From Candidatus Zixiibacteriota bacterium (lineage in GTDB: Bacteria > Zixibacteria > MSB-5A5 > UBA10806), in assembly GCA_024641335.1 (NCBI GenBank), contig JAHEDG010000015.1:1-57193 (forward strand): a stretch of 57,193 bases of DNA, written 5' to 3'. Below, piece by piece: positions 16,043 through 47,249 of the stretch. A model generated the notes under the pieces. The model did not search any database and was not told where the DNA came from. It was given only the letters and a program-made list of their open reading frames with translations. How positions within the stretch are numbered: position 1 is the first letter of the stretch; each line of letters starts with the position of its first letter. The translations under genes and the position numbers were made by a program.

Positions 16043-19000
16043 ATGAAAATGGCCGGTTTGTTCGTAAAAAAAGGTATGAGGATTATCACGCTATCAATTT
16101 TTACGCTTATACCGGTTTTTTCGCCGATGGATATCCGGGCAGACGATACCTCCCCGCCATTGATACTGGAACATGCCGACCAGCTTTCTGGCGCCGGCGG
16201 AAACAGCGATATCTGGAATCTTCTTGGTAATGTCCATCTTTCGCACGAGGGCACCCATATCTACAGCCATCGGGCTACCTGGTACCGTAAAACTGGATTG
16301 GTCCAGTTCATCGATTCGGTCAGGGTCGTCGATACCGATAAAACCATTAACGCCCGTAGAGTCACCTATTTCCGCAGGGAGAAACGAGCCATAGCGGAGG
16401 GCAACGTACGGATCGAAGATACCGCCCGGGATATGCTCCTGCTTTGCGGAAAGGCGGATTATTTCAGGCAGTCCCGTCAGTTCCAGGCTATGGATGATCC
16501 GGTTCTTTTTCTGAATGTGTCCGACGATTCCTCCAAAATGAAAATCCAGTCCAAACGAATGGAATATTTCGCCGATCAAGCCAGGGGAACCGCTTACGAT
16601 TCTGTGGTTATTCGTAAGAGCAATATGACTGCCACAGGAGGCCGGGCCGATTTTCAAAGAGACCCCGAAGTCGCCATTCTTTATAACGATCCGGTTGTAA
16701 TCCAGGGAGAGAATCGCCTGGCCGGCGATACCATCTCCATTTTTACCCGCGAACGAGCCATCGAACGTCTGCTGGTCGAGGGCAACGCCAAAGCCTTTTA
16801 TCAAAATCAGCCGGATACCCTTTTGAGCGAATTCACCACCGCCGAGATTACAGGTAAAGAGCTGGAAGTGTTTTTCAAAGGCGATGAGATCGACAGGGCC
16901 ATTACACGCCGTAACGCTATCTCAGTTTATGTACCGGCGGTCACCGATACCCTGACCCGCGGAACAAACGTCGCTTCCGGCGATTCCATAATTCTATATT
17001 TCGATCGCGGGTCGATTCAAAGAGTCTTAATCTCCGGCGGAGCCGAGGGGAAATATATCGAGCCAAATATCGGGGCGGAGGAAAAAATCGTTTATGACAC
17101 CACCAAATATTCCGCCAGGCAGATCGATTACGATTTCAGCTTATCCAAAATTAGCCTCCTGAACAACGGTATGCTGGAATATCAGGACATGCTGCTGAAC
17201 GCCGGGGATATCGAGTATGATCTGAACGAAAAAATACTCTCGGCCCGCGGTATTAAGGACGATTCCACCGATGATGTCTGGGAGGAGCCGGTTCTTCAGC
17301 AGGGAGCCGATAAACTCTACGGTTCTCGCATGACCTATAATCTGGACACGGAGAAAGGCCAGGTTTCCACCGCCCGCACCAAATATGAGGGGGGATTTTA
17401 TTATGGAAAAGCCATCAGGCAAATATCTGAAGATGAGATGTTCGTATCCCAGGGGAATTACTCATCGTGCGATCAAGAAGAGGACACCCATTATCATTTT
17501 CAGAGCAGGCGGATGAAGATGATCAGCAAAGATAAGGTAGTGGCCAAACCGGTCATCCTTGTAATCGGCGAGCTTCCGGTTTTCGCGGTTCCGTATTATG
17601 TTTTTCCCATCAAAAAGGGCCGTCATTCCGGCTTCCTGCCCTTCGAGATAGGGAATTTCGAGCGTGGCGAACGGTTTATCAGGAATGTCGGGTATTACTG
17701 GGCCGCTTCCGAATACTGGGACCTGGAGACCGGTTTCGATTATTATGAAAGCCGCAGAATTATTCTCAACACCGGACTCAGATATAATCTGCTCTATCAC
17801 TTCAATGGAGGACTAAGATTCAACTATGCCAGGGAAACAAGCTGGGTTAATTACAAACATGTTGTCGAGCCGAGCTGGCGTTTGGATATGAATCACCACC
17901 AGGATGTTTCCCAGACCATAGTTCTGACAGCGTCAGGCGGTTTTGTCTCTGATAAAAGCTTCACTACGAAAAACGTCTACGATCTCGAGGAGCGTCTGAA
18001 TAGGACCGTTCGTTCGGATATCAGTATTAATAAGAAATGGCCGTCATCGGCCTCGTCGTTGGTTATTTCAGGAGGCCATACCTGGAATCTCGACACCGAT
18101 GTCCGAGAGGAGCGCTTGCCCAAATTTACATTTTCCAGATCCGCCTGGCAGTTGTTCCCAGCATCGTCCGGATCGAAAAAAAATAAGCGATTGAAGCCCT
18201 GGGAAGAACCGGTCGAACCGAAAACCAGATTTTACAACACTCTTAGCTTAAATATCAGTACATCGGGACAGAATATTAATAATCATATCATGGCCGCCGA
18301 CAGCTCATTTTACTGGCGGGGATATCAGACTCTACTCAGCCAGGCCGATTTGAGCGCCCCGCAGAATATTTTCGGCGTTTTGACATTGACCCCCGACGCC
18401 GATTTCACACATACTCTTTATCATTTGAACTGGAATACCGAGATCGAAAAAGACACTCTGGCAAATCTGAGGACAGACAGGCTTTTCACCCGCGAAACAT
18501 ACTCTTTGGGCCTTTCGGCCAGAACCGATCTTTATGGTATGGTTTATCCGAATATACTGGGTCTGACCGCCCTGCGTCATGTCGCAACCCCGAGCATCAC
18601 CTATCGCTTTAAACCGGATATTTTGAATAATGAAAAGTATCGCGATTACACGGGAATCGGAAACAGTTCCCGCCGATCAAAAACATTGTCATATTCGTTG
18701 AAAAACGTCTTTCAGGCCAAGTATCGCTCGGGCGAGACAGAGAAAAAAACCAATCTGTTCAACATGGATATAAGCGGAGCCTACGATTTTGTCCCGGAAA
18801 TCAAAAAGATAAAGGACGTAACCGTATATATGCGGGCTGACGCCATACCCATAATAAATCTGACCTATAATTCACAATATTCTTTTTATAATTTCGATGA
18901 CAGCCGACGGCCGCTGAACAACCCTCGTTTGGTCAACTCCACTATCGCCTCTTCGTTTAGAGGAAGTTTCAAGCCGGGGAAAACGTCCGAAAAGGGCGAA

Positions 19001-19414
19001 GATGAGCTCGAAGATGAATCGCGGAAAACAGATGAGATATGGGCCAAAGGTAAAGCCGGGGGCAAAGGCGTAAATATCTCGGAGATCGGGATAGAATATT
19101 CAGTCTCGCACAATTATACAATAACCAAAAGCGCAAGCGGAACAATCAAAAGCCAGTGGTTTAAGTTCGGACTTATCTTAACGCCCACAGTCGGCTGGGG
19201 CGTGGAATACGATTGTAATTATGATATGGAAAGCGACAGGATAAACTCTCAGGGATTGAACATCAAGCGAGATATGCATTGCTGGGAGGGATATCTCACA
19301 TGGATACCGTCGGGACCGGTGGCCGGATATTATGTCAGGATCAATATCAAATCGCTGCCCGATATCAAAATAGAGAAATCCGAGGGTGGAGTTGGAGGTA
19401 GATCTTTTAGATGA
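16043..19414 (+). CDS. lptD: LPS-assembly outer-membrane protein LptD (OstA)
   Basis: An 1123-residue LptD-type protein that inserts lipopolysaccharide into the outer leaflet. An N-terminal signal segment (RIITLSIFTLIPVFSPMDIRA) is followed by an unusually long OstA/LptA-like region (about 35-470) with repeated strands such as LLGNVHLSHEGTHIYSHRA, AEGNVRIED, VEGNAKAFY and TAEITGKELEVFF. From about residue 475 the LptD barrel domain begins (NYSSCDQEEDTHYHFQSRRM, PVFAVPYYVFPIKKGRHSGFLPFEIG). E. coli LptD is 784 residues, so the extra length is mainly N-terminal jelly roll. Three in-frame ATGs occur (16043, 16049, 16076); 16043 fits the upstream promoter, 16076 is the alternative. No lptE or lptA gene is adjacent. 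Confidence 0.92.
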   Translation: MKMAGLFVKKGMRIITLSIFTLIPVFSPMDIRADDTSPPLILEHADQLSGAGGNSDIWNLLGNVHLSHEGTHIYSHRATWYRKTGLVQFIDSVRVVDTDKTINARRVTYFRREKRAIAEGNVRIEDTARDMLLLCGKADYFRQSRQFQAMDDPVLFLNVSDDSSKMKIQSKRMEYFADQARGTAYDSVVIRKSNMTATGGRADFQRDPEVAILYNDPVVIQGENRLAGDTISIFTRERAIERLLVEGNAKAFYQNQPDTLLSEFTTAEITGKELEVFFKGDEIDRAITRRNAISVYVPAVTDTLTRGTNVASGDSIILYFDRGSIQRVLISGGAEGKYIEPNIGAEEKIVYDTTKYSARQIDYDFSLSKISLLNNGMLEYQDMLLNAGDIEYDLNEKILSARGIKDDSTDDVWEEPVLQQGADKLYGSRMTYNLDTEKGQVSTARTKYEGGFYYGKAIRQISEDEMFVSQGNYSSCDQEEDTHYHFQSRRMKMISKDKVVAKPVILVIGELPVFAVPYYVFPIKKGRHSGFLPFEIGNFERGERFIRNVGYYWAASEYWDLETGFDYYESRRIILNTGLRYNLLYHFNGGLRFNYARETSWVNYKHVVEPSWRLDMNHHQDVSQTIVLTASGGFVSDKSFTTKNVYDLEERLNRTVRSDISINKKWPSSASSLVISGGHTWNLDTDVREERLPKFTFSRSAWQLFPASSGSKKNKRLKPWEEPVEPKTRFYNTLSLNISTSGQNINNHIMAADSSFYWRGYQTLLSQADLSAPQNIFGVLTLTPDADFTHTLYHLNWNTEIEKDTLANLRTDRLFTRETYSLGLSARTDLYGMVYPNILGLTALRHVATPSITYRFKPDILNNEKYRDYTGIGNSSRRSKTLSYSLKNVFQAKYRSGETEKKTNLFNMDISGAYDFVPEIKKIKDVTVYMRADAIPIINLTYNSQYSFYNFDDSRRPLNNPRLVNSTIASSFRGSFKPGKTSEKGEDELEDESRKTDEIWAKGKAGGKGVNISEIGIEYSVSHNYTITKSASGTIKSQWFKFGLILTPTVGWGVEYDCNYDMESDRINSQGLNIKRDMHCWEGYLTWIPSGPVAGYYVRINIKSLPDIKIEKSEGGVGGRSFR

Positions 19415-19900: not shown

Positions 19901-22900
19901 ATGGCCAAAACCCTGAAAATAGTCTCCGCTGCGGCGGCATTGTTTTTTCTGACTATTATACTGTTAGCGCTGGCGGCCAGACTGTATTTCAGCGATACCC
20001 GAATAAAAGGGCTCTTGGAAAATTACGCCGGTCAGTCGCTGGATAGCCGTGCGACTATCGATTCTCTGACGATAAACGGTTGGCTGGATCTGGATATTCG
20101 CGATCTCAAAATCTCCGAAAAGAATACCGGCACGCCCTGGCTGGTCATTGAAGATCTGCGGATGAGTTTCGATCCCTTTGCGCTCCTCTCAGCGAGGTTA
20201 TCGATCGATGAGCTGATAGTCTCTCGCGGGTTTCTTGATTACTCGAAAATTCCGGCTGTCGGATCGGGAGAATCTGAAACTGCTGAAACTGATTCGGGGC
20301 TTAAGACACCGCTCGATATTACCCTGAACCGCTGCCGGGTGAACGATTTCGAAATCACCGGCCCCGAAGCCGATTTCGCCGTCAATATCGATATAGCTGG
20401 TTTCGAATTCTCTGATCTGAATGATTTCTCCTCGAGTTTCGGGATCATAATAAAAGACGGCCTGATTCACTATCTATCCGACTCATTGCGGGCGGACGGT
20501 TCTTTCGAGTTCGACCTTACCGGCCATATCGCTTCCGAAGGAAAGACCGAACAGAAATTGAGCTTATCGCTTCGCGATCTAATGATTTCAATTGGAGATA
20601 CATATCCTGTCGGTGATATCGACCTTGCCTCCGAGATCTCCGCCGATATAGCCGAAAAATCGATCGCCATCAATAACCTGCGGATCGATTTTGATAATAC
20701 CAAGTTGATCGAGTTCTCCGGGCTCGTCGATCTAAAAGAGCCCCCGAAGCTAGATCTTAAGGCTCGCGAAGCAGACTGGAAACTCGCCAAATTCGATAGG
20801 CTCGTCAAGCAATGGGGCATCCCGCTCGATCTTCGCGGAGATCTCTCCCTGGAGGAGGCTGAAATCAGGGTTACGCCATCCGCCGTTTCATACGATTTTA
20901 CTCTGGCTCTCTCGAATATAGAAACAGGATACTCCGATCAAATCAGAATCGATGGCATCAACGGCAGGATATTTTCAAGCGGAGATATGGGAGAGATTAT
21001 TTTCGGCAGTTCCCTGGATATCGATTCGGTGACAGGCACAAAGGCCGACGGTTCGGTTGTCCGGCTGCGGAAAATCTCGACAGCGATCGAAACCGAAATT
21101 ACCGATGCCGATTTTAATTTCAATATCACTTCCGGCATATCGGATTTTATGGGCGGAGCTTTCGATCTTTCGGCTTTCAGCCAGAATTCTCGGGTGCAGG
21201 GAGAGCTGAAAGCGGCTAATTTGGATTTGGCCGAGATATCTTCCCGGGTCGCCGGACGAAATGATACTTCGGTTTTCGGAATCTTCAATCTGACCGTCGA
21301 TTTATCCGGAGTCCTCGATTCGATCAACGCCCGGATATCGGCCAGGGCGGACGGCATGCGAATTGTCGAGGATAGCGATACGCTCAGTCTGGGAACCCAG
21401 AATTTTACCATGTCCGCCATTACGATTATTAGAAATGGATTTATCGATTCAAAAGCCGACTACCGGGCCGGGGATGTGATCGTCGGAAAAGCGTCGGTAA
21501 ACCTGCCTATACAGACCAGCAGCCGGGATAGTCTGGTTTTTTCCTTCGATTTGGATATCGATAACGCCCTGATTCCCGGGTATTTGCCTCCCTCGCTGAT
21601 CTCCGCCGTGGGGGCCCTGGATCTTTCAGGCCAAAGCGCTTTGTCCGGACGCTTCGCCAGCTCGACTGACAGCGTCAGCTTCAGAGGAACATCCAGCCTG
21701 ACAATCAAACCGACCGATATTCTGATAGAGGATTTTCAGAGCCTGTTTTCCAATCTGGTAGGAATTTCGGAAGTGAAGATCGATGAAAAAGGGGTATCTA
21801 TCTCATCCAATAACGATATCGGTGAGCTCTACGCGGAAAACTATTCGGATATTACCTTCCCCATGGTCAATTTCTCCGGCGAGATCATCTCGAGTTCGGA
21901 TACCACCTGGCGTCTGACCAATGCCATGATAATGATACCATCGATAAAAACTTCAGTAGCGGCCGTTGGGGAGATAGGGTATTCTCAAAATGTGCCGTTT
22001 TCGAATATAACGCTTCATATCGGTTTTGAATCGCCTGATCCGGTACGATTAGCGAAAGAAATTACTATTGACGGGGCGTTTCAGGCCGATCTCAATCTGG
22101 CGCAAACCGGCGATTTATTGAGTATCTCCGGCGGATTTGATCCTTATAACGTAAATATCGTAATGCTCGAAGAATATCGGGTACGGGGGATCAGCGGCCA
22201 CCTGCCGATCAGGGGGGAATTCAATCTTGCCGAATCGCTTTTTGTCGGGACGTCGGACCCCGCGGATATTATCAGCTCGAGATATATCCGGGAACGGTCC
22301 TCAGGCACGGCGTCAGAATTGACCGGACAGATCGATATTCAGAAGATCCTGGCCGGCCCGATAGTCGTCTCCGAAATCGGAGTGGATATAGCTTTCGAAA
22401 ACGGAGTATTGCGGATTCCTGATTTTTCAGGGACACTTCTCGGAGGGAATTTCTCCGGTCAGATTTTGGCTGATTTTGGGAATGTCAACCTGATGAGAGA
22501 GTTTCCGGACTACGAAAAATTAAAATACCGTTTCGCCATAGAGATGACCGGGCTCGATTTCAATCGGCTGGTCAACCAATTCGGGCCGTATGAAAAGAAA
22601 GCCGAATTCAGCGCTGATGCCTCATTTGCCGGAAGAGGGATAATCGCGAAAGGAGAAAATTTCACCATCGACGGGAATTTCCATATCTCCGAGATGGGCT
22701 CCGACGTGGCCAACAGGATTCTGGATGTTCTCGATCCGGATAATCAAAACCCCGGCGTTACTCAGACCAGATCGCTAATGAACAGAAAATTCCTCGGCAT
22801 CATCGATTTGAGCTATCGGCCGGATAATTTTTCATTCGAATTGAAGCACGGTTCGGTATATCCCCGGTTGTTCATGGATCAGCCGTTTTTCGCCGAGGCC

Positions 22901-22990
22901 ATTCCTATCATAAGAATACCCATGCCCATCGAATACGGGCGAATTCCTTTGAAGACAATACTCAATGCCGTAAAGGAGACGTCATGGTAA
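19901..22990 (+). CDS. AsmA/YdbH-like intermembrane lipid-transport protein
   Basis: A 1029-residue protein with one N-terminal membrane helix (LKIVSAAAALFFLTIILLALAARLYF) followed by a long periplasmic stretch of amphipathic beta strands, beginning with the typical GLLENYAGQSLDSRATIDSL / NGWLDLDIRDLKI pattern of AsmA-family proteins. The C-terminal end (SYRPDNFSFELKHGSVYPR, PIPIIRIP-like segment, PIEYGRIPLKTIL) resembles the YdbH branch. AsmA-family proteins form hydrophobic grooves bridging inner and outer membranes. The next gene overlaps its stop codon by 7 nt and encodes a DUF1318 lipoprotein; in E. coli YdbH works with YnbE and YdbL, so the context supports the YdbH assignment. Homology at family level is good, the specific subfamily is inference. 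Confidence 0.82.
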   Translation: MAKTLKIVSAAAALFFLTIILLALAARLYFSDTRIKGLLENYAGQSLDSRATIDSLTINGWLDLDIRDLKISEKNTGTPWLVIEDLRMSFDPFALLSARLSIDELIVSRGFLDYSKIPAVGSGESETAETDSGLKTPLDITLNRCRVNDFEITGPEADFAVNIDIAGFEFSDLNDFSSSFGIIIKDGLIHYLSDSLRADGSFEFDLTGHIASEGKTEQKLSLSLRDLMISIGDTYPVGDIDLASEISADIAEKSIAINNLRIDFDNTKLIEFSGLVDLKEPPKLDLKAREADWKLAKFDRLVKQWGIPLDLRGDLSLEEAEIRVTPSAVSYDFTLALSNIETGYSDQIRIDGINGRIFSSGDMGEIIFGSSLDIDSVTGTKADGSVVRLRKISTAIETEITDADFNFNITSGISDFMGGAFDLSAFSQNSRVQGELKAANLDLAEISSRVAGRNDTSVFGIFNLTVDLSGVLDSINARISARADGMRIVEDSDTLSLGTQNFTMSAITIIRNGFIDSKADYRAGDVIVGKASVNLPIQTSSRDSLVFSFDLDIDNALIPGYLPPSLISAVGALDLSGQSALSGRFASSTDSVSFRGTSSLTIKPTDILIEDFQSLFSNLVGISEVKIDEKGVSISSNNDIGELYAENYSDITFPMVNFSGEIISSSDTTWRLTNAMIMIPSIKTSVAAVGEIGYSQNVPFSNITLHIGFESPDPVRLAKEITIDGAFQADLNLAQTGDLLSISGGFDPYNVNIVMLEEYRVRGISGHLPIRGEFNLAESLFVGTSDPADIISSRYIRERSSGTASELTGQIDIQKILAGPIVVSEIGVDIAFENGVLRIPDFSGTLLGGNFSGQILADFGNVNLMREFPDYEKLKYRFAIEMTGLDFNRLVNQFGPYEKKAEFSADASFAGRGIIAKGENFTIDGNFHISEMGSDVANRILDVLDPDNQNPGVTQTRSLMNRKFLGIIDLSYRPDNFSFELKHGSVYPRLFMDQPFFAEAIPIIRIPMPIEYGRIPLKTILNAVKETSW

Positions 22991-23556
22991 GATATGGATT
23001 ATCGTTGTGTTTGCTTGCCGGAACGTTAACAGCGGGCTGCACTATCAAACCGCCTGAAGTTCATGTTACATCCGATAAAACAGCGTTGGAGTATCAGCTC
23101 TTCGGCCAACAGGGGAAACTCTCCGACGATCCGGCGACAACGGCATCGGTCTGGGCGCTCTACTCGATGTCCGATTATGAATCCGGGCAGCTGGATGATC
23201 TTATGTCCTTCCACGAAGAATATTATAAGCGAAAAATAATGCTGGCCCAGATTCGCCGCAAAACCACGCGTGAAAATATCGACGAGCTTAAGCGCTATGG
23301 GCTGCTGGGAGAGCGATCCGACGGCCGAATTCGGGCCATGTCAGATACTTTGAAACAGGCCGATGAATTGTCCCGGATTGTTACCGCCGAAAATAACGAC
23401 CGCGAGATTATCTGGGAGTTCTACGCCAGAACCCATGGCCTCAATAGTGATGAAGAACTGGAATCGCTGAAAACGGATTTTGCGGGTATCATGGCCAGGC
23501 TTTCGCCTTCCGGTACATGGATAGAAGATAAAGAAGGGAAATGGTATCAGAAATAG
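22984..23556 (+). CDS. Lipoprotein combining YnbE-like and YdbL-like (DUF1318) parts
   Basis: A 190-residue lipoprotein. The signal peptide ends in a lipobox, LTAGC, with Cys19. Directly after it, CTIKPPEVHVTSDKTALEYQL resembles the short outer-membrane lipoprotein YnbE (CTPRIEV...). The C-terminal half (about 85-190) ends in LSPSGTWIEDKEGKWYQK, like the conserved end of YdbL/DUF1318 proteins (PGEYVRGINGKWLRK). In E. coli YdbH, YnbE and YdbL are separate proteins that together maintain outer-membrane lipid balance; here the last two appear to be one polypeptide. The ATG overlaps the stop of the AsmA-like gene (ATGGTAA). The next gene starts on the base after its stop codon, which implies tight co-translation. 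Confidence 0.75.
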   Translation: MVRYGLSLCLLAGTLTAGCTIKPPEVHVTSDKTALEYQLFGQQGKLSDDPATTASVWALYSMSDYESGQLDDLMSFHEEYYKRKIMLAQIRRKTTRENIDELKRYGLLGERSDGRIRAMSDTLKQADELSRIVTAENNDREIIWEFYARTHGLNSDEELESLKTDFAGIMARLSPSGTWIEDKEGKWYQK

Positions 23557-26500
23557 ATGAGATTGATTAAAATTATATCTATCGCAGCCTTTCTGTTCCC
23601 GATTGGCCTTTCCGGAGCATTCGCCGCGGCGTTAAATTTACCCGAGCCGGTTACTCTGGGGCCGGGCATCGAATATGATCCCGCGATATCGCCCGATGGC
23701 AAATTGCTGGCCTATTGCTCGAATGCCGGCGGGAATGAGGATATATGGATAATGAACCTGTCGAATAATACCCGATGGAAAATGACCGATCACACAGCCG
23801 CCGATTATTCTCCGGGTTTTGTAGGCAATGATAAAATAGCGTTTGTATCGAGAAGGGAGAGCGGCGGCGGCGCTATTTACATATCGAATATCGATGGAAG
23901 CGATATCAAAAAAATCATCGGAGGTCAGGGATATTTCGACCGGCCGGCCTGCTCGCCGGATAAAAAATGGATAGCTTATGTTCACGCCGATCGGGGAGAA
24001 TCTCCCAGGCTGATGATTTATAATTCGAAAACCAAACATCAATTGCCCGGTCCGGCGGGTATTGCCCCCATCTTCTCACGATCAGGAGACAGCCTGATAT
24101 TCATCGCCGACAGGTACAACCGAAACTCCTTTTCCACTCTGGCTGTCTACAACCTTAAAGATTCATCGGTGACTTATCCCGATACCGGACCCGGTGTGGA
24201 TGCCGAGCCCTGTTACGATCCCGCGGGCAAAAAAGTGATTTTTATTAAATATCCCGGCGATACCAATAATGACGGGACAATCACGACCTTGGATGACCCT
24301 GTGCTGATGATATATGATCTTTCAGCCAATACAAAGCGGATAATTTATCCGGGGCTCCGGTTTTTCGATATCTCGGTCTCCTCGAATGGCGCGATTTACG
24401 CCGAGAAAGATGACGGGAATATTTTCAGATTGTCAGTAAATGGCGTAATGAACGAAGAGTGGGACGACAATCGAAATATGGTATCCTTCGATTCTCTCGT
24501 TTTCCATGCGGAGTCGTTCGATGATTCGATCATGGCCGCGGCTGTCGGTTACGATATCTTTCTTCTGACCGGTTCGGAGAATCTGGAGACGCTTATTAAA
24601 TCAGCCGAAATATATACTGGCTTGAAGATGTACCATTTGGCGGGATATCTGCTGGATGCCGCGAATATCGAACAACCATCGGCGGATAATTATAAAGTCG
24701 ATCTGGAGAAAGGGAAATTGGCTTTCAAGGAAATGAAGGAAAGATCCCTGCATAAGGCCTGGTATGATATTTACCGTCTTTGCCGCCATTACCAGCGTAA
24801 TCCCGATATTCCCCCCGATCTGGCTAAGGAAGCCTGTTTATTTGGTATGGAAGCCTGTTTTGCGGCCGCGAAATACGCCGAGGGGGATTCTCTGGCCGCT
24901 GACGGTCTCCAGAGATTCGCTGATGATACCCTGTTTTCGGCCCGTGTCCGGCGATGGAATCTGATGTACACTCTAGCGTCCTACGCCGGAGATCCGGCGG
25001 ACCTGACTCCCCTGTTTATCGAATATTCGGATAGTTATTCCGAATATCCGTTTCTATGCGATTCGGCGGCTATCGATTTGATTTCGCGTACCCGCCGTTA
25101 CGATACCGATATGTCGATAACCGCGTTGGGAAATATAAGATCCGAGGGAATATCTTCGAGGCCGATTGTCATCCGGTCTTTGATCGAGCAGGCGTCGAGG
25201 CTCCGCGCGGCAGGACGTAATTCTCTGGCCGAACTGATATATCAGGAGATACTTGAAGAATTTACTGATATTCCGCAATTAAGATATGAGGTGTTTGTGG
25301 AATTAGGGGATATCTCCCTGGCGGCCGGAAGGATCGTTCCGGCGCGAGCTTACCTTGATTCGGCGGCCGCGTATCTCGGCACGGTTAATGATTATGGCAA
25401 AGTAGGCCGTTTCAAGAGAAATTACGCGTCATTGTACGCCTTTCTCGGGCAAAATAGTATCGATAGCAATTCGGTCAGGGCGGAGCAGTTATTCCGGATA
25501 TCATTGAAATACTATTCGGATAATTATTATGCCTTATGGGGACTCGCCGAAAGCATGGCCCGGCAAAAAAAATGGGACCGTTGGAACAATGCCGACGAAT
25601 TGTTGCCGTCGAATGTCCAGAAGGAGTATTTTGCCGCCCTGAAATATATCACCGCATTCGAATTTAACCATGACCGGAAGGATCTGCGATCCGCCAGAGT
25701 TCATTTGCTTTCTGCCATCGAGATCGACCCCCGGTATCCGCCGCCATATTTGAGTATCGGATATGTTGATTGTCTTTTGGAGAATCTGCAAAAAAAGCCG
25801 GGAAAGTATTTTGAGGAATCTATCGAACTCTCGCTGCAGGGCATGGCGGCCGCTAAAGGCAGCCGGTATCTCGAATCCGGGTTTTATATAAACCTGGCCG
25901 AAGCTAATTACGGCCTGGAGCAGTATGAGGACTCTTATTATTATTTTATCCGAGCCCTTGAATCGGACTCAACTGCGAGTGCCGATATGTTATTCGCCGG
26001 TCATTTGGCCGAAACGGCCTTTCAGCTCGATAGTCTGAAACAATCCCTGCGGTATTTCTCCGAATTGTACGACCGGGCATTATCCCAGGCCGACGAATCT
26101 TCGAGAGCCAGCCACGCTCTCAAGCTGGGCACGATCTGCTATCTTTCAGGAGAACATGATAAGTCGATAGAATATTACTCTATTGCCGAACCGTACTATT
26201 TATCGATCGGCGAACTGACGACGGTCGCCAATATCTATAAAGCCCGGGCTCTCGGTTTCAGGGCGATCGGCGAATACAGGCATGCGGCGGAATTGGCCCG
26301 CAAAAGCCTGGACCTGCTGACCAAAACAAAGCGAATAAAATCTCCATACGATAACCGGGTCAAATTTATAGTCTGGCCGTTCGGATGGGAGATACCTCTC
26401 TTGAGCATGCCCCCTCTGACCTTCGGCGGATCGATATATCCGCGAGGCTTAACCGCCCCGGCAGAGGATGCTTTTCTGTACTCGCTGATGGACAGGACAT

Positions 26501-29500
26501 TCGATCAGTCCGGCGCGATAGATCTGCTGATCAAGGAGATCGATTTGCTCGATAAAGGGGGCGAGCGGTATAATACCGCCGATCTCTGGAACCGTCTCGG
26601 ATTTTTGTATTTTGAAATCGGTTATACCGTATCGGCACAGGTGGCTTTCGAAAAAGCTTACCTGATTGCCCGCGATCTGGAATATTATGCTGTCGCGTAT
26701 ACCGCTATGGTTAACAGGGCAACAGCGCTTTTCTCGAGCCTGACTCTTGCGCCCGACGATATTTCTATTGAAAGTATCACCGGATTTCAAAAAGACGCTT
26801 CGGATTTATATGACAATATCCTGCCGTCATACCCTGTGGCCAGAGCCAATATTAAAGGCCTGGTTGGAGCGGCTGAATTCGTCCTGGGTCTGCTCGAATT
26901 AAACGAATCAAAAACCGAAATCGGCGGAGATATAGCGGAATGGTTCGATCATGTCGATGGCTTTTCTTCCAAGATCGCCGCCCGCTTCGAAAACAGCGGA
27001 TTCTATTACAATGAGGCGTTGGCTCAACTGGTACCAGGCGAATACCCCAGGTTGGAATCTGCGTTGATGATCGATAAGGCGGTATCATTTCTGGCCCTCG
27101 GCGATTTCGAATCGGCGGACCGTTCGCTTGAACAAGCCGTCCGGTTGGCTTCTATTTCGGAATCCGGCCTGCTTTTTGCCGAGGCAACCGGCCTGCATGG
27201 ATTAATCTTAGAAACAGACGGAGCGGACAAATACGGCAAGTTGCAGGATGCCATGGCAGTATTTCAGGATATGCCGCCGGGAATTCGGTTTTTGGCTGAG
27301 ATGCCCCTGATCGCGGGGTTCTCGAATAAAGCCTTCAATATGTCCGCTGTGTCCGAGCTGCCTATGAAATCGCTTTTCGACCACGAACTGTTTAAGAAAT
27401 ATAATATTGTCAACCGGTCCCGGTTGTATATCCCGGAAAAAGGTCGAAATAACCTGGCCGGAGCTTACCTTCGTCAGCTTCTTATTAATGAAAAGGAGTT
27501 GTTCGATTTATTGGCGGTAAAGAGGAAGCTTCTGGCGCTCGGAATAATCGGGCAGGTGGAATTGAAAAAGCAAAACGAGTTGATTTCTAAAAAACGATTG
27601 GCTTACTTCGATCTCAAACAAAAGATCAGAAAGTCGGATCCGTTCTTGATCTCGACCCTTTTTCCCGAATTATCGTTCGGCGCGGTTTCGCCCCCGGCAA
27701 TTCCGCCGGACGAGCTATTTCTCAGCGCGAAGTATACATCAAGAGGAATAACTATATGGGCCGGCGATTCAGCCGGGACGGAAATGTCGGAGATAACCGC
27801 TCCTCAAGAGATACTGAAAACCGAACTGCTGAAAAAGATCGAGAGTTACGGTACAATCACCATCGCCGAAATCGGCGGTCCGGGTGATTCTCTTGAATCA
27901 ATGATCCGCGGTCAGTTCCCTGATATGACAGTTAAGAGATCATATTCCGTCGATGAAGCTTATTCACGGCGGGATGCCGGCCGGGCGTTTTCCAACCGGG
28001 TAGCTATAATAAGATTCAAAGGGTATGTCGTCACCGATGAGCAGGCGGCTATGATTTCGGCGGATATTATCACCCCTGATACTATTGGCGGCATCATGGA
28101 AGCGGGGACCTATGGCTGGCTGGTTTTTGACGGCGAATTTATTAAAAACAAAATCAATCCGAACTTGTCCGGCTGGGAGTTGATTTCAAGAGAAGTGCTT
28201 TCTAACAGCGAATCTCGATATTGCGTTCATAATATCGATGACTCGCGATTTCAGGCCGCTGGCGCGATATTGCTGAATTCGCCGATTTCGGGGGAGGCAG
28301 CCGATTGGGCGCTGGCGATTAAGGCCTTAACCGATTCGGGTATTGGAACTGTTATAACGGTCTCAGCCGACAGCGGACGGCAAAACCCGATTCCTATGCT
28401 GAAGATGTTTTTCGAGTTATCGCGGGAGAAAAGACCGATCGAATCCTTTAAATTGCTTAAGGAAACAGGATATTCCGGCCTACGGTATTTCGGCCGGGAC
28501 GGCTGGAGCTTGAATTCGAGCGGAGATATGGCGGAAAAATGGCAGAGGGAGAGAATCTTCCTGGCCAATCAGGCGTCGCTTACGCGCAACTGGGATTTAG
28601 CCATCGAAAATTATATCCTCATTCTCGAATATCTGCGTGAAAACAATATTATGCGAAAAGGCGGCAATGATATTTTAAACAGGCTCATCAGTGTTTGCAG
28701 AAAGGCCGGAATTTATCAAAAGGAATTAAATTCGAGGGGCGATGACCTTCTGCGTTTTGCCGAAGAATCAGGCGATACCGTTACCTTGGCGGGAATCTAT
28801 CTCGATCTTTCAGCCGAATTCGTCGAGTCCGGAGATTATGGTAAAGCCATCGATTTTTCCTCCAGTGGAATCGAACTTTCCAGTAGTCGCGAAAATTCCG
28901 CTTTGGAATCAAAAGGGAAACTGATCCGGGCGGAAACATATTTGAGGACCGGGCAATATAATAAGGCAAAGGATGATATCTCGGCGGTCATATTATCGGC
29001 GGCGGCTCTCGGTAACGATGAAGGGAAATTCAAGGCTATGGCCTTGCTTGGAGAGTATTATAATAATACGGGAGAATATCTTCCGGCCAGGGAAAAATTG
29101 AAGGCCGCTTTCCGATATTTCCAATCGAAAGGCGATACCCCCGATGCCTTACGATGCCGGTATCATCTTGCGGATAATTACTTGAAAGCCGGGCAATTCG
29201 CCAGGGCCGGCGGAATCGTCCGGGAGATTATCGGCAATCGTGAGGTTTACGCCGATGCCGTATTGCTGTTGGGCAGAATCATGCTCTGCCAGGGAGACCT
29301 GGATTCCGCCTATGCCGTCGCCCTCGAAGGATTAAGAATCATCAAAGCCGGGGGGGGCGGCGGAGATCTTTCAAAAGCTCACGAACTGCTTGGCGATCTG
29401 AATTCGCTTAAAGGGGATAATCAGGGAGCCGGCGAACAATACGCGCTGGCCGGGAAATATAAAAGTGAATCGACGGATGAAGCCGGTTTGGATTTGCTAT

Positions 29501-30954
29501 TGTATAAATCAACTATTACCTCTGTTAGCGACCGACAGGCCGAAGAAATTCCGCTTTTGCTGGAAGTAGAGCATAGAATGAACAGCCAGTTTACCGGAGA
29601 TCTTTGCGGGTACAGACTCGGATTGGCCTATCTGAGTAGCGGCGATAATAAAACCGCCCGACAGTATTTCGAAAAAACGCTGAATTCCGAGAATTATGAT
29701 ACGAAAAGATACCTCGGCTGGCGCGCCCTTTACAATCTCGCCTTCTTAACCGACAGCCGATCCGAAGTCGAATTTCTGGTTAGAGCCGATTCGATGGTTC
29801 GGGAGATAATTCCGGAGCCTGATTATATCCTACCCCTATATGGTCTGGATATCAGCCAGGCCGATATAGATAACGCTTTGGGAAAGATAGCGCTGAACAA
29901 GGGCGAGACAATGGCGGCCCTCGATTTTTATGAAAGAGGATTCGCCGAGAAAACAGCCGCCGGATATTTCTCGCTGGGGTTATTTGACGATCTCGAATTA
30001 TCCATGCTGGATACGCTGAATGGTCGACGGCCGAAGGCAGAGGGTTTTTCGGGAAAGTCGGATAGATACAAAGTTCTCTGGGGAATACCCGAAATATCGG
30101 CGGATGATCTCAAGAAAAACATGGGGCCAACTGACGGATTAATTAGATTTTATCAGGTTGGCTCGAAGACCGTAGCCTTTTATATCGATCCCGATACTGT
30201 TTTCTGCCTTCAATATGATTTGGATTCTTCCGCCCTGGAAAGAGGGAGAAAGGAGATCCCGGGCTTGCTTCGTTATCAATCCCGGGCTGATTCGATCCTT
30301 GAGCTCTGGTATTCCGACCTGGTGGCCGGCTTCGATGACCTGATCGGCAAAAAAGAAAATATCTACCTGGTGCCTGATGGCACTCTCTGGTATTTTCCTC
30401 TGGAGACATTGAAGATGCCCGACGGCGATTATCTATGCGAAATTTATTCGGTGGCCAGACTGACACATCTGCAGGCGAAGATACCAAAGGATTCATTCCG
30501 CCCCATTTACCCGGGAAACGGCCCGGGGACATACAATATCTGGAATGATAACCTGGAGCTGATAGAGTATATCGCCGAAACAGTCGGCGAAGGTCCGGAG
30601 AAAAACAAAGATAGAGCCTTTTTTACCCCCAATGCTTACAATCAATACATTTATGGGCAAGGCTTCGATCAAGGTCTGGTTGTCTGCGAGACAGATCCGG
30701 TTCGGGCGAACCGCCGGTCAGATATGCCATTGAGCGCGCTTATGGCCCGGCGCGACGGCTATCTGGGATTCATTCAGACCTTATGGACGATCCCCGATCA
30801 GGGGATTTCCTATTACTATTGGAAATTCCTGAACGGTCTTTATTCAGGAAAAGGGCTCAACGCTTCCAATCGCGACGGTTCATCCTTGCTTTTCGGTAAG
30901 TATAAGGGCTTACCCTACTATTGGGGGTTTTCCGCCTCGATAAACCTGAATTAA
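23557..30954 (+). CDS. Secreted giant PD40-TPR protein with two degenerate CHAT-like domains
   Basis: A 2465-residue protein with a signal peptide (IISIAAFLFPIGLSGAFA). Residues about 35-330 are PD40/TolB-like propeller blades (AISPDGKLLAYCSNAGGNEDIWIMN, CSPDKKWIAYVHADRG). TPR-like helical repeats cover about 340-1300 and 1660-2150. At about 1310-1650 a coiled linker leads into a CHAT-like domain (DELFLSAKYTSRGITIWAG) whose usual catalytic His and Cys positions read VAIIRFKG and LLNSPISG, so both residues are absent. A second CHAT-like domain (about 2175-2465) keeps a Cys (Cys2377 in LVVCETDP) and the LWTIPDQG and LPYYWGF segments, but no matching His is visible. CHAT is a caspase-like peptidase fold. 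Translation probably couples to the preceding lipoprotein (TAG directly followed by ATG). Confidence 0.8.
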   Translation: MRLIKIISIAAFLFPIGLSGAFAAALNLPEPVTLGPGIEYDPAISPDGKLLAYCSNAGGNEDIWIMNLSNNTRWKMTDHTAADYSPGFVGNDKIAFVSRRESGGGAIYISNIDGSDIKKIIGGQGYFDRPACSPDKKWIAYVHADRGESPRLMIYNSKTKHQLPGPAGIAPIFSRSGDSLIFIADRYNRNSFSTLAVYNLKDSSVTYPDTGPGVDAEPCYDPAGKKVIFIKYPGDTNNDGTITTLDDPVLMIYDLSANTKRIIYPGLRFFDISVSSNGAIYAEKDDGNIFRLSVNGVMNEEWDDNRNMVSFDSLVFHAESFDDSIMAAAVGYDIFLLTGSENLETLIKSAEIYTGLKMYHLAGYLLDAANIEQPSADNYKVDLEKGKLAFKEMKERSLHKAWYDIYRLCRHYQRNPDIPPDLAKEACLFGMEACFAAAKYAEGDSLAADGLQRFADDTLFSARVRRWNLMYTLASYAGDPADLTPLFIEYSDSYSEYPFLCDSAAIDLISRTRRYDTDMSITALGNIRSEGISSRPIVIRSLIEQASRLRAAGRNSLAELIYQEILEEFTDIPQLRYEVFVELGDISLAAGRIVPARAYLDSAAAYLGTVNDYGKVGRFKRNYASLYAFLGQNSIDSNSVRAEQLFRISLKYYSDNYYALWGLAESMARQKKWDRWNNADELLPSNVQKEYFAALKYITAFEFNHDRKDLRSARVHLLSAIEIDPRYPPPYLSIGYVDCLLENLQKKPGKYFEESIELSLQGMAAAKGSRYLESGFYINLAEANYGLEQYEDSYYYFIRALESDSTASADMLFAGHLAETAFQLDSLKQSLRYFSELYDRALSQADESSRASHALKLGTICYLSGEHDKSIEYYSIAEPYYLSIGELTTVANIYKARALGFRAIGEYRHAAELARKSLDLLTKTKRIKSPYDNRVKFIVWPFGWEIPLLSMPPLTFGGSIYPRGLTAPAEDAFLYSLMDRTFDQSGAIDLLIKEIDLLDKGGERYNTADLWNRLGFLYFEIGYTVSAQVAFEKAYLIARDLEYYAVAYTAMVNRATALFSSLTLAPDDISIESITGFQKDASDLYDNILPSYPVARANIKGLVGAAEFVLGLLELNESKTEIGGDIAEWFDHVDGFSSKIAARFENSGFYYNEALAQLVPGEYPRLESALMIDKAVSFLALGDFESADRSLEQAVRLASISESGLLFAEATGLHGLILETDGADKYGKLQDAMAVFQDMPPGIRFLAEMPLIAGFSNKAFNMSAVSELPMKSLFDHELFKKYNIVNRSRLYIPEKGRNNLAGAYLRQLLINEKELFDLLAVKRKLLALGIIGQVELKKQNELISKKRLAYFDLKQKIRKSDPFLISTLFPELSFGAVSPPAIPPDELFLSAKYTSRGITIWAGDSAGTEMSEITAPQEILKTELLKKIESYGTITIAEIGGPGDSLESMIRGQFPDMTVKRSYSVDEAYSRRDAGRAFSNRVAIIRFKGYVVTDEQAAMISADIITPDTIGGIMEAGTYGWLVFDGEFIKNKINPNLSGWELISREVLSNSESRYCVHNIDDSRFQAAGAILLNSPISGEAADWALAIKALTDSGIGTVITVSADSGRQNPIPMLKMFFELSREKRPIESFKLLKETGYSGLRYFGRDGWSLNSSGDMAEKWQRERIFLANQASLTRNWDLAIENYILILEYLRENNIMRKGGNDILNRLISVCRKAGIYQKELNSRGDDLLRFAEESGDTVTLAGIYLDLSAEFVESGDYGKAIDFSSSGIELSSSRENSALESKGKLIRAETYLRTGQYNKAKDDISAVILSAAALGNDEGKFKAMALLGEYYNNTGEYLPAREKLKAAFRYFQSKGDTPDALRCRYHLADNYLKAGQFARAGGIVREIIGNREVYADAVLLLGRIMLCQGDLDSAYAVALEGLRIIKAGGGGGDLSKAHELLGDLNSLKGDNQGAGEQYALAGKYKSESTDEAGLDLLLYKSTITSVSDRQAEEIPLLLEVEHRMNSQFTGDLCGYRLGLAYLSSGDNKTARQYFEKTLNSENYDTKRYLGWRALYNLAFLTDSRSEVEFLVRADSMVREIIPEPDYILPLYGLDISQADIDNALGKIALNKGETMAALDFYERGFAEKTAAGYFSLGLFDDLELSMLDTLNGRRPKAEGFSGKSDRYKVLWGIPEISADDLKKNMGPTDGLIRFYQVGSKTVAFYIDPDTVFCLQYDLDSSALERGRKEIPGLLRYQSRADSILELWYSDLVAGFDDLIGKKENIYLVPDGTLWYFPLETLKMPDGDYLCEIYSVARLTHLQAKIPKDSFRPIYPGNGPGTYNIWNDNLELIEYIAETVGEGPEKNKDRAFFTPNAYNQYIYGQGFDQGLVVCETDPVRANRRSDMPLSALMARRDGYLGFIQTLWTIPDQGISYYYWKFLNGLYSGKGLNASNRDGSSLLFGKYKGLPYYWGFSASINLN

Positions 30955-43244: not shown

Positions 43245-46200
43245 ATGAAAACCCCGCTGATTATCGCGGCGGCAATAATGATCGTCCTGGGATCGCTAAC
43301 GGTTCCTTCCGGTTTTTCCGTTGCCGGAACAGTTTTCGATAACGATATCGAAATTCTGGAATCTGATCAGTTCGGTGTTACCCTGCGATATTCTGTTCCC
43401 GATCCGGTTTTCGAGCAATTGGATATCGATCGGAAAGAACTATATAAAATGAATATTCCCGGAACAGCGATGATTCGGGAGAACGGCCGTGTGTCCATTC
43501 CGGTTAAGATGGTTCCCATAGGGCTGCCTCCACTGGCCGTCCCCGGAATCAAAATAGTAGGCCGGGAGTTTTATCAATCCCCATTTAAGAAGATCGCTCC
43601 ATTTTTCTCCGAATCCACTGAAGACGATTTCCGGGCGGCCTTTTCTTCGCCGCTGGCTGAAAATCCGAAGATACCGTCATCGGCGCCGTATGTCGTATCG
43701 CTCGATAATATCCGGGGATTGAATGTCGCCAGGATTGGGATTCCAGCGGCAGACTATTCCGAAAATCCTCAAAACCTTTCTATTCTGAAATCCATTACTC
43801 TGAGGATTGACTTTGAAAATGCCCGGCCGGATATTTCAGTCGGTTTCAGGAATCCTGGGAATAGTTTTAATAAAATATTCCGAAAAGTTATCGCCAATTA
43901 CGACGCGGCCTCCGAATGGTTTATGGCCAGGGAAAGCGAATCGTTGAGCCTGGCGACCACCTCTTCGCCTTTCGATTCGGCCGTGACCTGGATTAGAATG
44001 GAAATATCGTCCGAGGGTGTTTATAAATTCGGCTGGCTGGAATTCAGATCTGTAGATATCGATCCCTTGAGTATCGATCCAGACCGGATCAGGATTTTCA
44101 ATGGCGGCGGAAGAGAATTGCCGGTGCTGAATTCCGATCCGAGACCGCAATTGACGGAAATCCCGCTGGAAGTTATGGGCGGTTCCGATGGTCAGTTTGA
44201 TAACGGCGATTATATTGTTTTTTACGCCGATGCTGTCGATGGCTGGGAGTATTCCGATATTCTGAATGAATTCTCTCATTATAGAAATCACTACACCTCC
44301 AAAAACGTTTATTGGATCGCCCTGGACGGCGATTTCGCCGACCCGCCGAAAAGATTCACTGCAGTTGACGGTTCTCCGGACGGTTCTTTCGATTTATCTG
44401 TCGATTCATATACCGCTATAACCCACAAAGAGGTCGAGTGGATATTCTGGAGGATATCACCGACTGCCGGCATTCATGACGTGTTTGACTGGTACTGGGA
44501 CTATCGCAAGGTATTTACCACCTCGATACAGTTGTTTGATGTCGTGCCCGGAGGACAATCCAAAGTGATTATCAGGCACAGAAGCGGAACCCCTTATCTG
44601 ACTATCAATAGTTCAAGTCCTTTGGCCCCGACCCCTGTTTCGCTGTTCTCAACCTATTCGACCGCCGATCTGTCGAGCGGGCTCAACAATCTGCAGTTAA
44701 ACTCCACTCGGGATTTCTATCTCGATTACATAAGCGTTTATTATCCGAGATGGCTGCGGCTTATCGACGGTGTTATGCGCTTCGCCCAGCCGGATACGTT
44801 CGGCGTCATAGAATATAATCTGACTTCGGTTCCGTCGGCTTTCATGCTGTTGGATATCACCGATGTGAGCAATCCGGTTAAAATAACCGGAGGGCAGTTG
44901 AATGCCGGCGACCTCGTATTTCATAACCAAGCCGATTCAAGTTCGCGCAAACAATTTTATATTTCCACCCTGGATAGAATGAAAAGCCCGGGAGCTTTGG
45001 CTTTGGTTCAGCATGACGATCTTCGGGATATATCCTCTTCGAATAACAGAGCGGATGAAATTATAATAACATACGATGGTTTCTACGATCAGGCGGCCAG
45101 GCTGGCTGAGCACAGAACACGCGAATATAATATAACGGTCCGGGTGGTCAAAATCTCCGATATTTATAATCAGTTCTCCTGGGGGCTGACCGATGCTGTA
45201 GCCATCCGCGATTTCCTCAAATATGCCTACGAAAACTGGCCAGCCCCGGCCCCGACATTCGCTCTGCTTTTGGGTGACGGCCACTATGATTATCGCGGCA
45301 ATCTCGGGAATTTCCCTTACTTTATCCCGCCGTTTGAAAATACTACCTATATGACCGACGAGCATTTCATTTATTTCGGCGCGGAAGGCCGTCTCGATTC
45401 CGATCTCAACGGCGCTCCCGATATGATGATCGGACGTATCCCGGCCAATTCTGTTCGAGACGCAACGGAAATGATCGATAAAATAATCGCTTATGACAGT
45501 GATCCCGATCTCGGCATGTGGAGAAACAGAGTGGTTGTTGTAGCCGACGACAATATCACTCCTCGGGGCAACGGCGAAACCATTCATACCACTCAGGCAG
45601 AGACTCTAAGCAATCTTCATGTTCCCCGGAGCTTCGATGTGGCCAAGATCTACCTGGTCGAATATCCCATGCGCGCCGGATTCGAAAAACCCGAAGCGCG
45701 CGAAGCTCTCCTGGGGGCGTTTAATCAGGGTTCGATCTTGATAAATTATATTGGACATGGAAGCCCCGGATTGTGGGCCGATGAACATATCTTCAGAAAA
45801 GCCGAGGATATACCCCGTCTTCTTAATGGCAAAAGATTGCCGCTGATCTTTACCGCTTCCTGTTCGATAGGTTTTTTCGATGACCCCACAGTCGAGAGTT
45901 TCGGCGAAGATCTGATCAGAAACGGCCGGCGAGGCGCCGTGGCGGTTATTTCCGCTACCAGAGCTGTTTATTCTCAACCGAACGCCGCCTTCAACTATCT
46001 GGTGTTTGACCAGATTCTGGGAAATGATTCGATCGGAATAGGCGAGGCGATGTATATCGCCAAATTTCTCCGTGACGGACCCGGAGATCCGACACCTACC
46101 AACGACAGGCTTTACGTGCTCTTCGGCGATCCGTCGCAGATTCTTCAGTTTCCAAAATTCGATATACGTTTTACCTCGCGTCCTGATTCACTCGCGGCCT

Positions 46201-47249
46201 TGAGCCTGAATAGTGTCGGCGGGGAGATCACCGACAGTAATGGCAATCTCATGAGTGATTTCAACGGAACCGCGATCATTACCGTAAAAGACGGTACTAT
46301 CAATAGATCAGTAGTGCTTAGAGATAGACAGAGCAACCCGCTTCCCGGCTCGAACAATACGATCAGCTTTCTGTCGCCCGGAGCGACGATCTTCGTAGGC
46401 CCTGTGGACGTAGTCAACGGCAGGTTTTCCAGTCAGTTTTTTGTGCCTAAGGATGTCTCCTATGGCAGCCAGGGGGCCAGGATTTATGCCTACGGCGAGA
46501 ACGGCGAATATGACGGGATCGGCGTAGTGGATTCCATCCTGATATCGGGCGCTATCCCGACCGTTGTCGATTCTACCGGACCGGGTATCGTCCTGCTGGC
46601 CGACGGGCGGGAGTTCGATCCGGGAATCACCCTGGTTCATTCGGGGTTTACTCTCTCCGCGCGAGTTTCGGACGAGCATGGAGTAAATATTACCGGGCAG
46701 CTCGGACACGGTATCGTGCTCAAGGTCGATAACGGCGAACTTTATGAGGCCGACGCCACCGGCTATTTCCGATATAACAGGGGTGAATTTACCGGCGGGA
46801 CGATGGAATTGACTATGCCGTCGCTGCCCCAGGGCGAACATGAAATTTCAATCAAAGCCTGGGATAATTTTAACAATTCCACTCTGGTTACCAAGACAAT
46901 CGAGGTGGTATCGTCGGAAAACCTGCGGCTTTCCGAGGTCATGAATTACCCGAATCCCATAAGATCGGGTATGGCCTCTACCTCGTTTCAATATTGCCTG
47001 AATAATGATGTCGACCGGATAAGTATCGGAATTTTCACCGTGTCGGGCAGAAAAATAAAGACTATCGATATCTCATCACCGGATTTGACTCAGATCGGCT
47101 GCCATCAGATCCCCTGGAACATAAGGGACGGTGACGGCTATGAATTGGCGAATGGAGTTTACATTTTCAAGATTTCGGCCTACGGACAAAATCCTGATGG
47201 CGGAAAGGCTAAAACGGAGCAAACGAAAAAACTGGCGATATTGCGGTAA
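43245..47249 (+). CDS. porU: PorU-type gingipain-family (C25) T9SS sortase
   Basis: A 1334-residue exported cysteine peptidase. After a signal peptide (PLIIAAAIMIVLGSLTVPSGFSVAG) and a long N-terminal beta region comes the C25 domain (about 640-970): ADEIIITYDGFYDQAARLAE, LLLGDGHYDYRG, FIYFGAEGR, DMMIGRIPANS, the catalytic His838 in NYIGHGSPGLW and Cys873 in TASCSIGFF. Immunoglobulin-like beta domains follow, then a C-terminal sorting-type domain from about residue 1233 (MNYPNPIRSG, YELANGVYIFKI). In T9SS, PorU removes the C-terminal signal of cargo and links it to a surface anchor. A gene for a PorV-type partner follows. GAGGAGG precedes the ATG. A stand-alone secreted C25 protease is the alternative. 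Confidence 0.87.
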   Translation: MKTPLIIAAAIMIVLGSLTVPSGFSVAGTVFDNDIEILESDQFGVTLRYSVPDPVFEQLDIDRKELYKMNIPGTAMIRENGRVSIPVKMVPIGLPPLAVPGIKIVGREFYQSPFKKIAPFFSESTEDDFRAAFSSPLAENPKIPSSAPYVVSLDNIRGLNVARIGIPAADYSENPQNLSILKSITLRIDFENARPDISVGFRNPGNSFNKIFRKVIANYDAASEWFMARESESLSLATTSSPFDSAVTWIRMEISSEGVYKFGWLEFRSVDIDPLSIDPDRIRIFNGGGRELPVLNSDPRPQLTEIPLEVMGGSDGQFDNGDYIVFYADAVDGWEYSDILNEFSHYRNHYTSKNVYWIALDGDFADPPKRFTAVDGSPDGSFDLSVDSYTAITHKEVEWIFWRISPTAGIHDVFDWYWDYRKVFTTSIQLFDVVPGGQSKVIIRHRSGTPYLTINSSSPLAPTPVSLFSTYSTADLSSGLNNLQLNSTRDFYLDYISVYYPRWLRLIDGVMRFAQPDTFGVIEYNLTSVPSAFMLLDITDVSNPVKITGGQLNAGDLVFHNQADSSSRKQFYISTLDRMKSPGALALVQHDDLRDISSSNNRADEIIITYDGFYDQAARLAEHRTREYNITVRVVKISDIYNQFSWGLTDAVAIRDFLKYAYENWPAPAPTFALLLGDGHYDYRGNLGNFPYFIPPFENTTYMTDEHFIYFGAEGRLDSDLNGAPDMMIGRIPANSVRDATEMIDKIIAYDSDPDLGMWRNRVVVVADDNITPRGNGETIHTTQAETLSNLHVPRSFDVAKIYLVEYPMRAGFEKPEAREALLGAFNQGSILINYIGHGSPGLWADEHIFRKAEDIPRLLNGKRLPLIFTASCSIGFFDDPTVESFGEDLIRNGRRGAVAVISATRAVYSQPNAAFNYLVFDQILGNDSIGIGEAMYIAKFLRDGPGDPTPTNDRLYVLFGDPSQILQFPKFDIRFTSRPDSLAALSLNSVGGEITDSNGNLMSDFNGTAIITVKDGTINRSVVLRDRQSNPLPGSNNTISFLSPGATIFVGPVDVVNGRFSSQFFVPKDVSYGSQGARIYAYGENGEYDGIGVVDSILISGAIPTVVDSTGPGIVLLADGREFDPGITLVHSGFTLSARVSDEHGVNITGQLGHGIVLKVDNGELYEADATGYFRYNRGEFTGGTMELTMPSLPQGEHEISIKAWDNFNNSTLVTKTIEVVSSENLRLSEVMNYPNPIRSGMASTSFQYCLNNDVDRISIGIFTVSGRKIKTIDISSPDLTQIGCHQIPWNIRDGDGYELANGVYIFKISAYGQNPDGGKAKTEQTKKLAILR

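Follow-up and report, generated by a model that had tools for sequence, protein, structure and literature searches.

Csx29, the TPR-CHAT protein of type III-E CRISPR (Craspase), carries a TPR array followed by a CHAT fold, keeps its His-Cys dyad (H585/C627; PMC9729208) and acts with the CRISPR effector gRAMP. A CHAT is also present in a membrane/envelope protein, the solved transmembrane protein DdvA (PDB 8rot, 8rw5), which is an anti-sigma factor according to its entry title; our literature search found no paper on its structure or on exported dead CHATs. Bacteria are known to have dead caspase-like proteins, among them the pseudo-orthocaspases, which combine a caspase-like fold with a substituted dyad that is conserved as such, although they belong to the p20 domain family and not to CHAT (PMC6426788). 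With regard to the cell envelope, three AsmA-like proteins of E. coli, YdbH among them, have been proposed to move phospholipids to the outer membrane, and ydbH shares a single locus with ynbE and ydbL (PMC8593681). YdbH interacts with the lipoprotein YnbE, and even in E. coli it is described as unclear which other factors take part in AsmA-like bridge complexes (PMC12977461).

We analysed a stretch of 57,193 nucleotides (the window) from a Candidatus Zixiibacteriota genome (G000), which encodes a giant exported protein of 2465 residues at 23557..30954 (+ strand, as for all features of this protein and of its upstream genes given below). It begins with a Sec signal peptide (23557..23628) with cleavage near AFA-A, judged by eye, which bears out the export proposed by the first-pass annotation; the N-termini of its relatives are hydrophobic too. 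A TolB-like PD40 beta-propeller follows (residues 30-300, 23644..24456; Pfam PD40 E 7e-15), and the TolB model TIGR02800 of NCBIfam matched the protein at E 1.5e-24, below that model's own cut-off. A first TPR region (residues 311-1290, 24487..27426; Pfam TPR_12 at 851-922, plus others) and a long helical linker lead to a first CHAT domain, CHAT1 (residues 1381-1660, 27697..28536). A second TPR region (residues 1661-2150, 28537..30006; Pfam TPRs at 1785-2045) separates it from CHAT2 (residues 2172-2465, 30070..30951), located at the C-terminus. No transmembrane helix was seen by eye after the signal peptide, and neither a T9SS tail nor a lipobox was detected in the giant.

That both regions adopt a CHAT-like fold, as the first-pass annotation had proposed, holds on different evidence for each. 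The profile search that it had suggested was only partly successful: CHAT1 of the window protein gave no Pfam CHAT match, and CHAT2 gave a weak one (PF12770, E 0.0096 with the full-length query, residues 2267-2305), which is below the cut-off. The structure prediction was more informative for CHAT1, where the AF2 model (pLDDT 75.5, pTM 0.71) resembled Csx29/TPR-CHAT (best E 5.2e-8) and DdvA as its top PDB matches in Foldseek. A CHAT1 profile built from the three closest sequences retrieved nothing significant among intact CHATs, and sequence searches of the PDB with the domain alignments of CHAT1 and CHAT2 yielded chance matches only. For CHAT2, a comparison of its profile with those of intact CHATs from the same class gave 97-98% probability. 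Its AF2 model had a mean pLDDT of 49.9 with an unreliable second half, and the C-terminal half carries none of our claims; the first ~130 residues alone matched the CHAT fold (E 2.6e-5), again with TPR-CHAT/Csx29 as the best Foldseek match. CHAT1 is thus placed in the CHAT fold via its model match to Csx29, and CHAT2 over its N-terminal ~130 residues only. The CHAT identity of both regions is settled by the relatives, since these pass the Pfam CHAT cut-off for one or both domains: G007 for both (CHAT1 4.5e-28, CHAT2 3.8e-21), G120 and G122 for CHAT1, and G119 and G120 for CHAT2.

The catalytic dyad appears to be lost from both modules, with residue positions resting on alignments and predicted strands. 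In CHAT1, both alignments and model confirmed that the Cys strand LLNSPISG (residues 1572-1579, 28270..28293) has no Cys. VAIIRFKG (residues 1482-1489), correctly quoted like the ORF and its coordinates, had been taken as the His position and lies one strand too early. The proper site is YGWLVFDGEF (residues 1519-1528, 28111..28140), where Gly1526 or Glu1527 takes the place of the His, with a register that is uncertain by one residue. The sole His and Cys in this domain of the window protein, H1558 and C1556, are not conserved. In CHAT2, the motifs LVVCETDP (2374-2381), LWTIPDQG (2409-2416) and LPYYWGF (2452-2458) were all found as described, and so was the retained Cys without a matching His. 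This residue, Cys2377 (30685..30687), stands 33 residues ahead of the Trp in LW, which equals the spacing in intact CHATs, and its conservation extends to three genomes, those of the window protein and of the two closest orthologues. The only His in CHAT2, H2304, lies ~70 residues upstream and is not conserved. Compared with intact CHATs, CHAT2 has far fewer residues between its early strands and Cys2377, and the His strand itself may therefore be lost. An alternative profile-profile alignment puts LVVCETDP on the His strand, in which case CHAT2 would be without a catalytic Cys as well.

The nine giants together have 18 CHAT domains. A catalytic His at the aligned position was found in none of these and a catalytic Cys in four: spacing and conservation place it in CHAT2 of the window protein and both orthologues, and alignment places it in CHAT2 of G119. 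The two dyad residues occur together in 0/18. Of the 30 best ordinary CHATs examined in the phylum, whose motifs are HLATHG and LSACESG, all have the Cys motif and most the His (HG) motif. It is well supported by these comparisons that both CHAT modules are catalytically dead, and their dead state is, as judged from the alignments, a conserved condition in nine genomes of four families and not that of one decayed gene. The pair had earlier been called unusual as a tandem, exported and apparently non-peptidase arrangement; this description stands, but DdvA and dead bacterial caspase-like proteins are already known. In DdvA, the Cys is visible in the alignment (LAACEGG) and the His region falls outside it.

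The arrangement also differs from Csx29 in that the giant is exported and has two CHAT copies without a dyad. No CRISPR genes were recognised alongside it, and a search with a defence-system library gave no meaningful match. Within the same class, ordinary TPR-CHAT proteins (L023 and L025-L027 among others) resemble the giant in their signal-peptide-like N-terminus, TPRs and C-terminal CHAT, but they are about 1,000-1,250 residues long, lack the propeller and carry a single CHAT in which LHLATHG and LSACESG are intact. At L023 3029-14010, three paralogous TPR-CHAT genes stand in tandem, their His and Cys motifs intact. In the genome of the window protein, the dead CHAT is the only CHAT match.

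A broad scan of named genomes, with search patterns that reach close relatives only, returned two orthologues, both from Candidatus Zixiibacteriota. Orthologues and a profile search across 132 genomes of the phylum added eight full-length giants, about 2,400-2,750 residues long, with the same layout; across families, identity to the window protein is 18-31%. The giant is present in 9/132 genomes, belonging to four families. In G115 a scaffold gap of 100 N interrupts it, and the start of the giant adjoins the lipoprotein gene as in other genomes. Gaps of 100 N are found in the G115 assembly (CP070813.1) at each half of the giant (L022 15034-15133, L092 8119-8218), and the chromosome is probably mis-joined there.

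The strict genomic linkage of the giant had been overlooked by the first-pass annotation. Directly upstream lies a gene for a predicted lipoprotein with a YdbL-like DUF1318 domain (22984..23556; PF07027 E 3.2e-10), whose stop abuts the giant's ATG (junction TAGATG) and whose lipobox Cys19 is invariant across relatives. Its start is overlapped by the end of a gene for an AsmA-like protein of 1029 residues (19901..22990); all six of the relatives of the latter that were scanned match the AsmA family in Pfam (best 4.5e-18), and one of the six matched YdbH-like at 0.001. The gene for the LPS export protein LptD (16043..19414) is upstream here and in several relatives too. Giant and lipoprotein are adjacent in 9/9 genomes and the genes maintain the order AsmA-lipoprotein-giant; further downstream, gene order is conserved in part only. 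The lipoprotein starts with an invariant CxxKPPE-like motif (KPP invariant), and YnbE and YdbL functions are perhaps merged in this one chain.

DUF1318 occurs in exactly the nine giant-bearing genomes and in no other of the 132, and family-specific profiles for the lipoprotein and the AsmA-like protein return the same 9/132 genomes with a wide score gap. The co-occurrence of the three genes has a Fisher p of 4e-14 under the assumption that genomes are independent; as the genomes are related, the true significance is lower. Weakly matching lipoprotein candidates in G084, G087 and G096 were rejected as other lipoproteins that share little beyond an SKPPE / SKAPE start. A second, commoner AsmA-like family (800-1,000 residues; e.g., L093-L097 from G117, G027, G089, G010 and G020) is nearly universal in the phylum. 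Counted as strong at E below 1e-30, it is found in 116/123 genomes without the three-gene set vs. 1/9 with it (Fisher p 3e-8, the true significance again being lower among related genomes), as if one AsmA type had replaced the other. The one genome with both types is G112 (9% contamination).

Like E. coli YdbH-YnbE-YdbL, the set encodes an AsmA-like bridge protein, a lipoprotein predicted to serve the outer membrane, and DUF1318 (YdbL) together. Unlike in that system, DUF1318 is itself on the predicted lipoprotein and a giant TPR/pseudo-CHAT protein is added; the YnbE family had no match in the three-gene set. Given the missing YnbE and the lipoprotein-borne DUF1318, we do not file the set as a member of that system, only as working like one. 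We know of no such giant at the E. coli ydbH locus.

By analogy with ydbH-ynbE-ydbL, we read the three genes as a lipid bridge with an added giant, and we consider the chances about even that the giant is a periplasmic scaffold or regulator of a YdbH-type AsmA-like lipid bridge. This reading is based on the lost dyad, the co-occurrence in nine genomes, the kept gene order, the near-exclusion of the commoner AsmA-like family and the upstream LptD in several genomes. In this scheme, the bridge would consist of the AsmA-like protein, held in the inner membrane, and its partner on the outer-membrane side would be the lipoprotein that carries the YdbL-like domain. Sec would export the giant into the periplasm, where its propeller, TPR arrays and two CHAT modules could hold or regulate the bridge, with CHAT1 and CHAT2 acting solely as binding or folding modules. 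Anatomy and linkage suggest that a propeller, TPRs and dead CHATs fit a periplasmic scaffold, and genome context points to a partnership of the giant with the AsmA-like protein and the lipoprotein. We infer its periplasmic location, its membership of a complex and its link to lipid transport; a binding role of the CHAT modules, and what they would bind, is conjecture. The wider claim is more tentative, that the giant is a hitherto undescribed further component of AsmA-like lipid bridges, its two dead CHAT modules having been recruited to organise lipid transport to the outer membrane. A protein encoded strictly alongside an AsmA-like bridge is a direct candidate for such a further factor. If true, CHAT, a fold known for protease activity, can persist as a non-enzymatic module outside the cytoplasm.

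The bridge reading needs to be weighed against the non-independence of the genomes, as no more than about four events of gain or retention may underlie the set. Genes passed on together in one operon co-occur even if their products never touch, and Pfam does not clearly identify the AsmA-like protein as YdbH (the single match noted above). The giant could be an envelope scaffold of unrelated function that is inherited with the AsmA set, given that just nine genomes in four families carry it and that co-inheritance inflates the statistics. We regard this as rather unlikely, because the three genes are jointly absent even in G117 and G118, close relatives from the same family, and persist together across four families despite their strong divergence.

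It is less probable still that the giant is a periplasmic sensor or signalling protein, in which dead TPR-CHAT modules bind envelope-stress peptides and relay a signal, as DdvA may do via its CHAT. In favour of this, DdvA ranks with the best structural matches of CHAT1, and it alone was matched in the PDB by the sequences of ordinary CHATs of the same class. However, no sigma factor, anti-sigma factor or kinase was recognised among the conserved neighbours, the protein has no transmembrane helix by eye beyond the signal peptide, and its linkage is to AsmA and DUF1318. A role as an accessory of type IX secretion, comparable to that of PorW and PorE, which are TPR/propeller proteins, is improbable: PorU and a PorV-like protein are encoded 12-19 kb downstream and the TPR region weakly resembles PorW/SprE (E 1.3e-5, likely generic TPR), but PorU is found in 128/132 genomes vs. 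nine for the giant. A core part in the T9SS was rejected, as the system is near universal and the giant does not share its distribution. The least probable reading is an active peptidase with unusual catalysis, in which Cys2377, at canonical spacing and conserved in the three closest genomes, would employ another base, as CHAT2 has no conserved His, the Cys is missing from most relatives and the shortened middle may have removed the His strand.

Six C25 (gingipain-type) peptidase genes are present in the genome of the window protein (in the window and on contigs C16, C34 and C56), one of which is PorU (window 43245-47249). Adjoining PorU, an ORF at 47308-49887 matches Reg_prop propeller repeats and PorV, in what looks to be a fusion of a PorZ-like propeller with PorV.
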